From Methylophilales bacterium HTCC2181 (GTDB lineage Bacteria; Pseudomonadota; Gammaproteobacteria; Burkholderiales; Methylophilaceae): a stretch of DNA of 64,000 nt. The notes under the pieces were generated by a model that searched no databases, was not told the DNA's origin, and worked only from the letters and a program-made list of their open reading frames with translations. Made by a program: the position numbers and the translations under genes. Positions 107 to 64,000 of the stretch are shown piece by piece. The stretch is taken from the NCBI GenBank assembly GCA_000168995.1, contig AAUX01000001.1, forward strand, positions 682,001 through 746,000, given 5' to 3'. Within the stretch, counting starts at the first letter, position 1. Every line of letters begins with the position of its first letter.

Positions 107-1768
107 ATGCGTAAAATTATTGCCACATCCGCCTTGCCTTATGCAAACGGTAGTATACACCTTGGACATCTTGTCGAATATATTCAAACTGATATATGGG
201 TTAGATATCAGCGTCTTGTAGGTAATGAGATTCATTACATATGCGCAGACGACACGCATGGCACTCCGATAATGCTTAGGGCTGAGAAGGAAGGAATCTC
301 TCCTGAGCAGCTAGTAGAAAATGTGCACAAGGAACACAGTGCTGATTTTTCTGATTTTAATATTTCTTTTGATAACTTCTATTCGACCAATTCAATAGAA
401 AATAAAAATCTATCAGAAGCTTTGTACAAATCCTTAGTTGGGAACAATAAAATAGAGGCAAAAGAAATAGAGCAATTTTATGATGATAAGAAAAATATGT
501 TTTTGCCTGATAGGTTTATTAAAGGAACATGCCCGAAATGTAAAGCCAATGACCAATACGGAGATTCATGTGAGTCGTGCGGAACAACATATAGTCCAAC
601 AGATTTAATCGATGCTTATTCAGTTTTAACAGGATCGAAGCCCGTCAAGAAGAAGACGGAACATTATTTTTTTAAACTTTCCGAGTGTGAGAGCTTTTTG
701 TCTGAGTGGACACAATCTGACACGCTGCAAAAAGAAGCGCTAAACAAATTGCAGGAATGGTTTAAGGCTGGTTTGGCAGATTGGGATATCTCAAGAGATG
801 CCCCATATTTTGGCTTTGAAATACCAGGTGCACCAGGAAAATATTTCTATGTATGGCTTGATGCGCCAATTGGTTACATGGCGAGTTTTAAAAACTATGC
901 CGACAAAAACAATCTATCTTATGATGAATTCTGGAATAAAGACTCAACTACAGAGCTGGTTCATTTTATTGGAAAAGATATACTCTATTTTCATGCGCTA
1001 TTTTGGCCAGCAACGCTAAAATATTCTGGTCACAGAACTCCGAGTAAAATTTATGCACATGGATTTCTAACGGTGAACGGTGAAAAGATGTCAAAATCTA
1101 GAGGGACTTTTATTACAGCTCGAAGTTATATAGATGCATTTAAGACACCTGACTATTTAAGGTACTATTATTTTTCGAAGCTAAATGATTCGATGGGGGA
1201 TATCGATCTTAGCTTGGATGATTTTATTGTTAAGGTTAATAGTGATTTGATTGGTAAGCTGGTCAACATCCCAAGCAGAACCTCAGGATTCGTCACTAAA
1301 TTTTTTGATAATAAAATTATGCTAACGACTTATTTCAATGAGTCTGAATCGCAGATTTTAGTCAACAACATCTTACTTTCTAAAGATGAGGTGACAAGAT
1401 TGTTTGAGGCAAGACAGTTTAGTAAGATTTGCCGCCTTCTCATTTCTCATGTTGAGTCGGTCAATGAATTTGTTAATAATAAAGAGCCTTGGATCTTAGC
1501 AAAGGATGATGCACATAAAATGAAAGACTCATATCTTCATGAGGTTTGTTCAGCAGCTCTCCAATCCTTCCGACTCTTAAGTATATATCTTTCACCAATC
1601 ATGCCAGACCTGACAAAAAAAATTGCATCATTTTTCAATCAAGAAGAATTTTCATCCATAGACAATTTACTATCTGATGTTACAACCATAAAAAATTATG
1701 AGCATCTTTTAAAAAGAGTGGAACAGAAGGATGTGGACATTATGGTTGAGTCTAATAAAAATAATTAG
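107..1768 (+). CDS. metG: Methionyl-tRNA synthetase, short form
   Basis: Charges tRNA(Met) with methionine in the cytoplasm. The class I signature HLGH is at residues 18-21 and KMSKS at 327-331. The connective-peptide zinc knuckle is present as CxxC-x9-CxxC around residues 143-159. At 553 residues the protein lacks the C-terminal EMAP/Trbp-like tRNA-binding dimerisation domain of the ~677-residue E. coli enzyme. It ends close to the length of the known active, monomeric 551-residue E. coli fragment. ATG at 107 puts the family-typical start MRKIIATSALPYANG first. It converges on pyrF with a 4-base gap. No partner gene lies on the far side within this window. Confidence 0.97.
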   Translation: MRKIIATSALPYANGSIHLGHLVEYIQTDIWVRYQRLVGNEIHYICADDTHGTPIMLRAEKEGISPEQLVENVHKEHSADFSDFNISFDNFYSTNSIENKNLSEALYKSLVGNNKIEAKEIEQFYDDKKNMFLPDRFIKGTCPKCKANDQYGDSCESCGTTYSPTDLIDAYSVLTGSKPVKKKTEHYFFKLSECESFLSEWTQSDTLQKEALNKLQEWFKAGLADWDISRDAPYFGFEIPGAPGKYFYVWLDAPIGYMASFKNYADKNNLSYDEFWNKDSTTELVHFIGKDILYFHALFWPATLKYSGHRTPSKIYAHGFLTVNGEKMSKSRGTFITARSYIDAFKTPDYLRYYYFSKLNDSMGDIDLSLDDFIVKVNSDLIGKLVNIPSRTSGFVTKFFDNKIMLTTYFNESESQILVNNILLSKDEVTRLFEARQFSKICRLLISHVESVNEFVNNKEPWILAKDDAHKMKDSYLHEVCSAALQSFRLLSIYLSPIMPDLTKKIASFFNQEEFSSIDNLLSDVTTIKNYEHLLKRVEQKDVDIMVESNKNN

Positions 1769-62071: not shown

Positions 62072-63613
62072 ATGTGTGGAATCATAGGAATTGTTGCTAA
62101 CGAACCTGTCAATCAACTTTTGTATGATGGTTTGCTGGTATTACAACATCGAGGGCAAGATGCTGCGGGCATAGTCACAAGCGATGGCAGTCGTTTCCAT
62201 ATGCATAAAAACAACGGTCTCGTTAAGGATGTTTTCCATACACGCCATATGAAAACATTGAATGGTAATGCTGGGATTGGTCATGTTCGTTATCCCACAG
62301 CAGGCTCATCTTCGTCAGCAGAAGCTCAGCCGTTATATGTAAATTCTCCTTACGGCATAGTCCTTGCCCACAATGGCAATCTTACAAATGCCGATAAGCT
62401 AAAAGACGATATGTTTAAGCTTGATCTTAGACACCTCAATACAAACTCCGACTCCGAAGTGTTGTTAAATGTTTTGGCTCACTCAATAGTAGAATCCACT
62501 CAAGACAACGTATTAACATCAGACATTATTTTTGAAGCTGTAGCTTCGGTATTCGCTCGATGCAACGGAGCGTATGCCGTAGTATCTATGATTGCTAATT
62601 TTGGCCTACTAGCTTTTAGAGACACCCATGGTATTCGCCCCCTTGTTATAGGTATTAAAGAGACTGAGGCTGGTCCTGAGTATATTGTTGCCTCAGAAAG
62701 TGTCGCCTTAGATATGCTGGGATTTAGATTGTTGCGTGATGTTGAGCCAGGTGAAGCAATCTTTATAGATTTAGATGGTAATTTTTATTCAAAAAAATGC
62801 GCTCAACAAGCAAAACAGACCCCTTGTATTTTTGAGTACGTATATCTTGCACGTCCTGACTCAGTTATTGATGGAGTATCGGTTTATCAAACACGCCTAA
62901 ATATGGGCGGCACTTTGGCCAAAAAAATTAAAAGAGACTGGGCTAATTTATCCATTGACGTAGTGATTCCTATTCCAGATACTAGCCGCCCTTGTGCTCA
63001 AGAGGTTGCGTTAAAGCTCAATGTTAATTTTAGAGAAGGGTTTATTAAGAATCGCTATATAGGTAGGACTTTTATTATGCCCGGGCAAGCTCTCAGAAAA
63101 AAATCAGTGCGACAAAAATTGAACCCTATTAAATTTGAATTTCTGGGTAAGAATGTTTTGTTGATTGATGATTCAATTGTAAGAGGCACCACTTCTAAAG
63201 AGATAGTTCAGATGGCTCGGGATGCCGGAGCAAAAAATGTATATCTTGCATCAGCGGCCCCACCAGTAAAATTTCCTAATGTCTATGGTATTGATATGCC
63301 TTCGAGAAATGAACTTTTAGCTCACAATAAAACTTATGATGAAATCATTGATGAAATTGGTGCTGATGCACTGATATATCAAGATCTAGATGATTTAAAA
63401 TTGACTATTACTCAAGAAACGACTGCTATCAAAGACTTTGATTGTTCATGCTTTGATGGTAAATACATTACAGCCGATATAGATGAAGCATATCTGGCTA
63501 ATATTGAAAATGCTCGAGCCGATAAGGATGGTGATAATGAGTCCATTCCCAGCAGTCAATTAGATTTAAATTTATTAAATTACTCATCGGAAAATGAGGA
63601 GCAGCATGCCTAG
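62072..63613 (+). CDS. purF: Amidophosphoribosyltransferase
   Basis: First committed step of purine synthesis. The N-terminal nucleophile Cys2 follows the initiator Met (MCGIIGI). The glutaminase residues RGQDAAG and HNGNLTN are present. The PRPP-binding VLLIDDSIVRGTT is in the C-terminal domain. The length of 513 residues, with no N-terminal propeptide, matches the E. coli class; no [4Fe-4S] cysteine cluster is obvious. It is the last gene of the block and is followed by the metZ promoter and riboswitch. Confidence 0.97.
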   Translation: MCGIIGIVANEPVNQLLYDGLLVLQHRGQDAAGIVTSDGSRFHMHKNNGLVKDVFHTRHMKTLNGNAGIGHVRYPTAGSSSSAEAQPLYVNSPYGIVLAHNGNLTNADKLKDDMFKLDLRHLNTNSDSEVLLNVLAHSIVESTQDNVLTSDIIFEAVASVFARCNGAYAVVSMIANFGLLAFRDTHGIRPLVIGIKETEAGPEYIVASESVALDMLGFRLLRDVEPGEAIFIDLDGNFYSKKCAQQAKQTPCIFEYVYLARPDSVIDGVSVYQTRLNMGGTLAKKIKRDWANLSIDVVIPIPDTSRPCAQEVALKLNVNFREGFIKNRYIGRTFIMPGQALRKKSVRQKLNPIKFEFLGKNVLLIDDSIVRGTTSKEIVQMARDAGAKNVYLASAAPPVKFPNVYGIDMPSRNELLAHNKTYDEIIDEIGADALIYQDLDDLKLTITQETTAIKDFDCSCFDGKYITADIDEAYLANIENARADKDGDNESIPSSQLDLNLLNYSSENEEQHA

Positions 63614-63620
63614 CTTCACC

Positions 63621-63648
63621 TTGATTTATTTTAAATGAAATGGATAAT
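63621..63648 (+). promoter_or_regulatory. Promoter of the metZ leader
   Basis: TTGATT (63621-63626) and GATAAT (63643-63648) are separated by 16 bases. The predicted start is near 63655, about 5 bases before the first riboswitch helix. This fits an RNA whose leader starts with the aptamer. Confidence 0.55.
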
Positions 63649-63658
63649 ATAGAATGGT

Positions 63659-63714
63659 TAGCGCCGATTTGAATAATTCAGCTTGCGGGCGCTCTAAAAA
63701 TCAGCTAAAGCGGG
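63659..63714 (+). promoter_or_regulatory. SAM-II-like riboswitch aptamer upstream of metZ
   Basis: Stem P1 is a perfect 6-bp helix, AGCGCC (63660-63665) with GGCGCT (63688-63693). Its loop starts with GATTTGA and ends CTTGCG. The 3' strand (63694-63714) contains TAAAAAT, then CAGCTAAAG and CGGG. This order (GCGC, GATTT, TTGC, GCGC, then GCTAAA) is that of the SAM-II pseudoknot aptamer as I remember it. GCTT in the loop (63681-63684) could pair with AAGC (63708-63711) as part of the pseudoknot. SAM-II normally controls metA, metX, metC and metZ-type genes, matching the gene here. SAM-V, which shares this fold, is the alternative. Confidence 0.75.
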
Positions 63715-63715
63715 T

Positions 63716-63747
63716 AAACCCATCAGCAGCTGTTTGGGTTTTTTTTT
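63716..63747 (+). terminator. Riboswitch expression-platform terminator
   Basis: AAACCCA (63716-63722) pairs with TGGGTTT (63735-63741), and nine T residues run 63739-63747. CAGCT (63702-63706), inside the 3' half of the aptamer, can alternatively pair with AGCTG (63728-63732) in the terminator loop, with AAA/TTT support. This gives an antiterminator that is exclusive with SAM binding. It suggests transcription attenuation of metZ. Confidence 0.75.
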
Positions 63748-63777
63748 GTCTAAATTAGGTAAAGTGAATAAATCGTA

Positions 63778-64000
63778 ATGAATAAATTACCAAATAAATT
63801 TAACACTAATGCTGTCCGTGCAGGTATTAATATGACGGAAGAAGGGGAGCATTCAGAAGCAATGTTTTTAACATCAAGCTTTGTGTTTGAAAATGCGCAA
63901 CAGGCTTCGGATAGATTTAAGAATGTAGAAAAAGGAAATGTTTATTCTCGCTTTACAAATCCTACCGTTAGAGTTTTTGAGGAGCGGTTAGCCTCGTTGG
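63778..64000 (+). CDS. metZ: O-succinylhomoserine sulfhydrylase, N-terminal part
   Basis: The window ends after the first 74 codons. The visible sequence (NTNAVRAGINMTEEGEHSEAMF, then TSSFVFENAQQASDRF and YSRFTNPTVRVFEERLA) matches the N-terminus of Cys/Met-metabolism PLP enzymes. MetZ is favoured by the purF-metZ order of Pseudomonas. It would make homocysteine directly from O-succinylhomoserine and sulfide. The upstream SAM riboswitch supports a methionine role. ATG 63778 has a weak GGTAAAG SD about 15 bases before it. The gene is cut by the window edge, not broken. Confidence 0.88.
   Translation, partial: MNKLPNKFNTNAVRAGINMTEEGEHSEAMFLTSSFVFENAQQASDRFKNVEKGNVYSRFTNPTVRVFEERLASL

Follow-up and report, generated by a model that had tools for sequence, protein, structure and literature searches.

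Introduction

SAM-II riboswitches (SAM_alpha, Rfam RF00521) were described with a promoter just before stem P1 and often with a terminator after the aptamer, and Bordetella bronchiseptica is named in the key to the alignment figure of that report (Corbino 2005, PMC1273637, available parts). Terminator-linked SAM-II elements were reported in beta-proteobacteria in 2007, and the SAM-II RNA before metZ of Sinorhizobium meliloti is, in the accessible text of PMC9373788, predicted to form a terminator. A study from 2014 (PMC4239095), in the portions available, reports no SAM_alpha outside Rhizobiales and Rhodobacterales and proposes a new element, metXZ, in the metX and metZ leaders of beta-proteobacteria, three Methylophilales included. 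Tandem SAM-II/SAM-V leaders and double SAM-II leaders with mixed platforms are known as well (PMC9481103 and PMC11508383, in excerpts), and a cobalamin riboswitch is the only one reported for an OM43 strain in the accessible portions of PMC9004378.

Here we describe the leader of metZ in Methylophilales bacterium HTCC2181, located close to the end of the window, i.e. the whole stretch of 64,000 nucleotides that was analysed. Judged from sequence comparison and folding, metZ is in all likelihood controlled by a SAM-II riboswitch that acts through transcription attenuation.

Architecture of the metZ leader

The leader extends from the end of purF (63613) to the ATG of metZ (63778), and all features discussed in it are on the forward strand. 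The 6-bp P1, the motifs GATTT, TTGC and GCTAAA, the hairpin and metZ are all found where the first-pass annotation, made from the letters of the window, had placed them. The metZ gene (63778..64000) continues past the window; in the genome contig it encodes 390 amino acids, and the full protein reaches 646.9 bits with the curated model for O-succinylhomoserine sulfhydrylase (cut-off 522).

At the upstream end a putative sigma-70-like promoter, TTGATT and GATAAT separated by 16 nt, occupies 63621..63648, and transcription would start near 63655. The promoter claimed previously is present as a site matching at 9 of 12 positions, but it is not singled out from chance, being one of three such sites on both strands of 500 bases with 1.3 expected. 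In the nearest relative (L124) a similar promoter-like site is seen by eye at the equivalent place.

Stem P1 is formed by AGCGCC (63660..63665) and GGCGCT (63688..63693), which make six pairs. The conserved loop GATTTGA of the SAM-II core (63666..63672) fits the SAM_alpha consensus, and the core letters are GATTT at 63666-63670, TTGC at 63683-63686 and GCTAAA at 63704-63709. The 5′ strand of P2a, GCG (63685..63687), has C63705, G63704 and C63702 as partners and overlaps the core TTGC, which likewise fits SAM_alpha, while the 5′ strand of P2b, ATTC (63676..63679), is best placed opposite 63712-63715, in which register the window's copy contains two G-U pairs. The 3′ strand of P2 is at the same time the switching strand CAGCTAAAGCGGG (63702..63714); it contains the SAM-II core GCTAAAG and has an alternative pairing with the first half of the terminator. 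The predicted intrinsic terminator (63716..63747) consists of a hairpin at 63716-63741 and a T-run at 63739-63747, and the end of the SAM-II core is separated from the metZ start codon by 68 nt.

The alternative fold predicts an antiterminator hairpin at 63702..63732, in which CAGCU (63702-63706) pairs with AGCUG (63728-63732), GC (63710-63711) with GC (63726-63727) and GGG (63712-63714) with CCC (63719-63721). Without SAM, the CAGCUAAAGCGGG strand would pair in this manner with the first half of the terminator and the polymerase would read into metZ. With plentiful SAM the pseudoknot would be stabilised and GCUAAA would be paired with the P1 loop, leaving the strand not free; with the strand sequestered, the terminator would form and transcription would stop about 30 nt before the start codon. 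We infer that SAM is the ligand, that the pseudoknot folds and that termination depends on SAM in the cell.

Match to the SAM-II models

The best RF00521 match of the genome covers 63651-63725 with 29.4 bits (E 5.7e-5). It is the first of ten matches at E ≤ 10 and lies 16 bits ahead of the runner-up (13.7 bits); a search of the leader stretch against all Rfam likewise gave RF00521 with 29.4 bits (E 4.4e-5). Of 14 control genomes, RF00521 matched all at E ≤ 10, two at 0.05 and none at 1e-4. A check with Infernal and the Rfam SAM-II and SAM-V models had been proposed together with the first description of the element. It gave no SAM-II match above cut-off (29.4 versus 36 bits, the latter being a gathering score, i.e. 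a reporting cut-off and no structural feature) and no SAM-V (RF01826) match at E ≤ 10 in 63560-63800. In the Rfam scan of the entire window no family reached its gathering score, the SAM_alpha copy included. The SAM-II long loop model (RF01726) gives 21.5 bits on the same stretch (cut-off 44) and is weaker than SAM_alpha. A SAM-V identity was rejected on the missing RF01826 match and the distance of the core from the start codon, and the other weak Rfam names at this place (snoRNAs, RNAIII, a microRNA, a thermometer), as well as Burkholderia Bp2_287 on the opposite strand (16.3 of 70 bits), were set aside as chance.

A model built outside the window's own family, Methylophilaceae, recognises the element far better. 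R3 comprises 25 sequences, 16 from genomes of other families of the order and nine from named records, none of them assigned to Methylophilaceae or placed in its MetZ clade, the placement of L196 and L225 being unsettled. It scores the window's copy with 65.3 bits (E about 1.6e-18), the next match reaching 9.8 bits in the window and 14.5 bits in the genome; E-values of models of this type are rough, and the informative quantity is the gap in bits. Furthermore, 10 of 20 scanned loci from the order exceed the RF00521 cut-off. These loci were drawn from the 25 best new matches (L068-L092) of the family model R1 described below and are thus top scorers; all ten come from other families (10 of 19 other-family copies, L083 belonging to the same family). 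RF00521 is over its cut-off in only 2 of 187 genomes of the family. Taken together, these counts make the low score of the window's copy look like drift of the same RNA, probably towards the limits of a model whose training set is mainly alphaproteobacterial.

Distribution and genes behind the element

The family model R1 was built from 20 sequences, the window's own included. At E ≤ 0.001 it matches 158 of 187 family genomes in 22 of 24 genera, and 288 of 399 order genomes, the matches in both sets having been checked in part for the gene behind them. Compared with the 2 of 187 found by RF00521, this points to a large beta/gamma-proteobacterial SAM-II branch which scores near or under the public cut-off and can therefore go unannotated.

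Within the family, metZ stands beside the element in 27 of 30 loci checked; the exceptions are L009, L019 and L037, the last of which has neither element nor metZ. Alignment A1 of the family loci takes 20 of the 29 other loci (L001, L009-L036), with L037 and near-copies left out, and weak matches in the own genome (L002-L008) were not used. A separate set of comparison loci was located with a pattern that requires the core (29 of 30 found) and is no test of core conservation. When 80 metZ loci of named records were fetched by protein, 39 matches were obtained, of which 38 precede metZ and one (L234, 18.2 bits) lies at another place. The 38 carriers include Methylobacillus, Novimethylophilus and Methylophilus as well as records titled Gammaproteobacteria, Ectothiorhodospiraceae and Sedimenticola.

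Curated models identify the genes behind the element above cut-off as metZ (window, L068, L074, L077) and metK (L069, L071), and weaker copies precede metX, likewise above cut-off (L264, L266, L271, L272, L276). Copies ahead of metZ, metX or metK are thereby seen in families other than that of the window. A gene of the cystathionine gamma-synthase family lies behind L090 (over cut-off), while the first part of metH (L081) and a MetN-like gene (L273) remain below cut-off with the frame cut or partial. The open reading frames tested behind L084 and L085 and the frame picked for L263 gave no model match. One family genome (G159, contigs C29, C22 and C2) carries three copies of the element, L009 among them, two of which exceed the SAM_alpha cut-off.

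These data bear on the best of the alternatives, namely that the leader carries a separate beta-proteobacterial element, metXZ, which attenuates but is not SAM-II and may sense another compound. It draws on the publication of metXZ as new in such leaders, with a pseudoknot, an alternative pairing and a terminator (PMC4239095, available parts), and on the failure of the window's copy to reach the Rfam SAM-II cut-off. The same RNA family, however, has copies over the SAM_alpha cut-off in half of the scanned order loci, keeps the SAM-II core letters and, within one bacterial order, precedes both metZ and metX. Since core and genes are shared and copies pass the cut-off, the two names appear to describe one thing, and a distinct element is improbable. 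The preferred reading thus remains a SAM-II aptamer.

Three metX leaders (L264, L271, L274, the gene of the last assigned by eye) have GCTAAAGAGGTC directly before the start codon. They are probably translational, because no room is left for a terminator before the start codon.

A further group of metK leaders from other families (L279, L280, L281, L283, L284) has the same layout with GAGTTA in place of the core GATTTG; metK was assigned by model for three of the genes and by eye for two. By eye, P1 and a short P2b seem to co-vary in these five leaders, of which RF00521 detects a single one at E ≤ 1 (20.9 bits). They possibly represent a variant with altered binding. In five loci where the element precedes metK, SAH riboswitches with 52-62 bits follow it at a distance of about 1.3-1.4 kb (L069:51-128, minus strand; L071:2911-2989, plus; L279:123-230, L280:186-268 and L281:143-220, all minus), and SAM-type and SAH sensors hence lie side by side.

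Conservation of the aptamer helices

Alignment A4 holds 79 chosen loci (78 distinct rows) that resemble the window's leader type (type A, see below), taken at E ≤ 1e-8 and fitted to P1. Genus types B-D were left out, so that its counts speak for the chosen set; six loci below 54 bits (L160, L205, L178, L175, L163, L234) and two genome repeats (L162, L176) were also kept out. In A4, P1 is paired in 96.4% of cells and three of its six pairs are changed on both sides, the outer pair being seen as UA, UG, AU and CG. P2a is paired in all 78 distinct rows and is almost invariant, with one compensatory change (A-U for G-C), and P2b is paired in 75.2% of cells, two of its four pairs showing changes on both sides. 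P1 and P2 together reach a covariation score of 0.139; shuffling gives 0.092, with none of 500 shuffles attaining the observed value, and sliding the helices yields no more than 0.069. Further pair types in A4 are not in excess, 313 of 500 shuffles having at least as many.

An alignment of 20 family sequences made without fitting to P1 gives the same picture for this stem. Within the genus, too, two-sided changes occur in three of six P1 pairs with a score above all 500 shuffles, although the count of two-sided pairs is not unusual alone (399 of 500 shuffles). Compensatory changes in homologous metZ leaders, which the first-pass annotation had made a test of its proposal, are therefore present. 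Of the two parts of that test, these changes speak for the proposal and the missing match above the Rfam cut-off speaks against it. The plain fold energy of the leader is no better than that of shuffles (z 0.31).

Terminator and alternative pairing

The terminator had been called strong. Hairpin and T-run are indeed present and the hairpin at 63716-63741 folds at -8.8 to -8.9 kcal/mol, but a generic terminator scan reported none. Among the 79 loci of A4 a terminator is found in 78, the window's included, L187 being the exception.

If the terminator pairs are penalised, the best fold of the window's leader keeps P1 and joins 63702-63714 to 63719-63732, at -21.4 versus -21.9 kcal/mol unconstrained. 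For transcripts lengthened in steps of 4 nt the antiterminator is part of the best fold at ends 63734 and 63738 and no longer so at 63742. As the energy model contains neither pseudoknots nor SAM, we infer the switch point itself.

The aptamer strand GCUAAAGC can pair with the first half of the terminator in the window and in all chosen loci that have a terminator (78 of 79), in a test that was chosen after the fold had revealed the pairing and is not fully independent. In the best fold the strand NNNGCUAAAGC has at least 6 bases paired with the linker or the terminator arm in 78 of 78 loci, on average 8.2 compared with 4.8 when linker and arm are shuffled. The 7 pairs of NNNGCUAAAGC in the window are reached by 0 of 60 shuffles; at the median locus 12% of shuffles do equally well and, given the relatedness of the loci, the test draws its strength from the sum. 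A duplex test of aptamer against terminator arm is weak (mean z -0.62 for 78 loci; window z -0.27, 43 of 100 shuffles as good).

Folds and loci together support the capacity of the leader for two mutually exclusive pairings, as had been claimed. The earlier assignment of the switch to CAGCT holds for the switching pairing but needs a qualification: CAGCT occurs twice (63679-63683 and 63702-63706), and it is the second copy that is used in the best antiterminator fold.

Leader layouts within the genus

The metZ gene is present in 26 of 31 genomes of the genus, and its leaders (L123-L148) show four layouts. Type A, to which the window belongs, has SAM-II followed by a terminator (7 of 26). Type B (8 of 26) has a SAM-II-like core 23-32 nt from the start codon and no credible terminator, the hairpin of L146 having -0.6 kcal/mol. 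In type C (4 of 26) SAM-II and terminator are followed by a second aptamer-like element, and in type D (6 of 26) this second kind of element stands alone, with 10 nt between its core and the start codon and AGGA in its 3′ strand. L148, with a type A aptamer and no terminator found, falls outside clean typing. In five type D leaders (L137, L138, L140, L142, L143) one stop was counted inside the MetZ match; the frames are open for 389 amino acids from the ATG, and the genes therefore look whole.

R1 scores type B and the first element of type C with 22-46 bits and leaves type D unmatched at E ≤ 1; alignment A3 includes one chance row of 22 bases and no type D. A second model, R2, built from the second element of type C and similar copies elsewhere with no D leader among them, finds all six type D leaders (E 1e-6 to 1e-9); in the window's genome nothing matches it at E ≤ 0.01. 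Thirteen type B-D leaders scanned with Rfam showed no match to a SAM family at E ≤ 1. When short stretches were searched, L133 gave 24.0 bits with SAM-II long loop and 20.4 with SAM_alpha for its first aptamer and 15.9 bits with SAM-V (cut-off 41) for its second element, and L140 gave 15.4 and 13.1 bits, all below the cut-offs.

The four layouts follow the tree of 33 MetZ proteins. Types B, C and D each form one clade and C and D are sisters (100/98). Type A leaders are scattered among the basal branches adjacent to the outgroup, and the fork of B to C+D has no more than 85/81. The layouts perhaps record transcriptional control giving way to translational control. One tentative scenario, to which we assign somewhat less than an even chance, is that an ancestral terminator-linked SAM-II was joined by a downstream SAM-V-like aptamer in a tandem and was then lost, and that a second line lost its terminator independently. 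The order A, C, D would follow from this, though a tandem stage need not have preceded type D, and type B is a less clear case of translational control, 23-32 nt separating its core from the start codon. Were the scenario true, tandem leaders would be a route by which SAM-V-like aptamers can replace SAM-II, with the window displaying the starting state. In the parts of the literature covered, no comparable graded series within one genus was found. With four layouts in one genus, a riboswitch change from transcriptional to translational control becomes testable with natural sequences.

SAM-V-like elements of up to 32.6 bits (cut-off 41) are also seen before small open reading frames of 46-109 amino acids, some of them paired, from a search at E ≤ 1 that matched 3 of 14 control genomes as well. 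They are located at L150:599-666 and 866-933 (minus), L152:542-609 and 767-834 (plus), L153:605-672 (plus), L155:205-272 (minus) and about L154:699-763 (minus), and their P3-like stem reads GAC/GTC and GGC/GCC. Of five small proteins behind them none exceeds a Pfam cut-off, and three of the five gave weak unknowns or nothing in PHROGs. On their letters, these elements may be a SAM-type switch on small genes without family assignment. A viral origin was considered and found no backing, a strict, exact pattern giving 0 matches in viral contigs; L156, another match of the SAM-V search, lacks the core and was set aside.

The layouts give some weight to the idea that the aptamer of the window acts mainly on translation or RNA stability, with the hairpin minor or inactive as a terminator: 14 of 26 genus leaders (types B and D) are SAM-II- or SAM-V-like without a credible terminator, and the window's hairpin is modest at -8.8 kcal/mol. 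All seven type A leaders of the genus, however, have hairpin and T-run, as do all but one of the A4 loci, and the ribosome site lies outside the aptamer, the core ending 68 nt from the start codon and thus leaving that site uncovered. Control mainly at this level is therefore very improbable. Decay to a non-working riboswitch, as might be suspected from the shrinking genome (1.3 Mb) and the genus relative L148 without detected terminator, is hardly credible, given that the core letters are intact, P1 is kept through two-sided changes within the genus and the antiterminator pairing is kept. The element, with its SAM-II-like aptamer, metZ and terminator supported by models, relatives and covariation, is a genuine and ordinary member of the SAM-II class and very probably a working attenuator.

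Comparison with known systems

The first-pass annotation had regarded an attenuating SAM-II in a beta/gamma-proteobacterium as noteworthy, SAM-II being taken as mostly alphaproteobacterial and in many cases translational. The report of 2007 anticipates such elements; SAM-II has also been called most common in Alpha-, Beta- and Gammaproteobacteria (PMC2704228, accessible text), and the majority of SAM-II riboswitches have been called transcriptional (Huang and Lilley 2018, PMC6061858, accessible text). With these earlier reports the reason for surprise falls, and the finding itself is little new, one more SAM-II attenuator of a known class.

Compared with RF00521, the element shares the P1 hairpin and GAUUUG, GCUUGC, UAAA and GCUAAAG in the same order. 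It differs in P1, which is CCGUGG in the RF00521 consensus and GCGCC in the window, and in having the short P2b instead of the long GGCC-type helix that is read by eye from the consensus. With the S. meliloti metZ SAM-II, as presented in the available part of PMC9373788, it has the downstream terminator and the metZ target in common. The tandem two-aptamer SAM leaders resemble type C of four genus relatives, whereas the window has one aptamer.

The closest counterpart by description is metXZ. Compared by the available text of PMC4239095, not letter by letter, it agrees with the window's element in genes, in beta-proteobacteria with metZ of Methylophilales, and in pseudoknot, alternative pairing and terminator, and the element falls under its description, i.e. 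before metX or metZ in beta-proteobacteria with a terminator. In that part of the text its authors do not equate it with SAM-II, and literature on SAM-II with betaproteobacteria or Burkholderia, examined in part and with most subscription journals outside its range, yielded no link between the two; within that range no other paper mentions metXZ together with riboswitches. Because genes, bacteria and architecture agree, our comparison suggests that metXZ is very probably SAM-II, and a ligand can very probably be assigned to an element that was first described as new.
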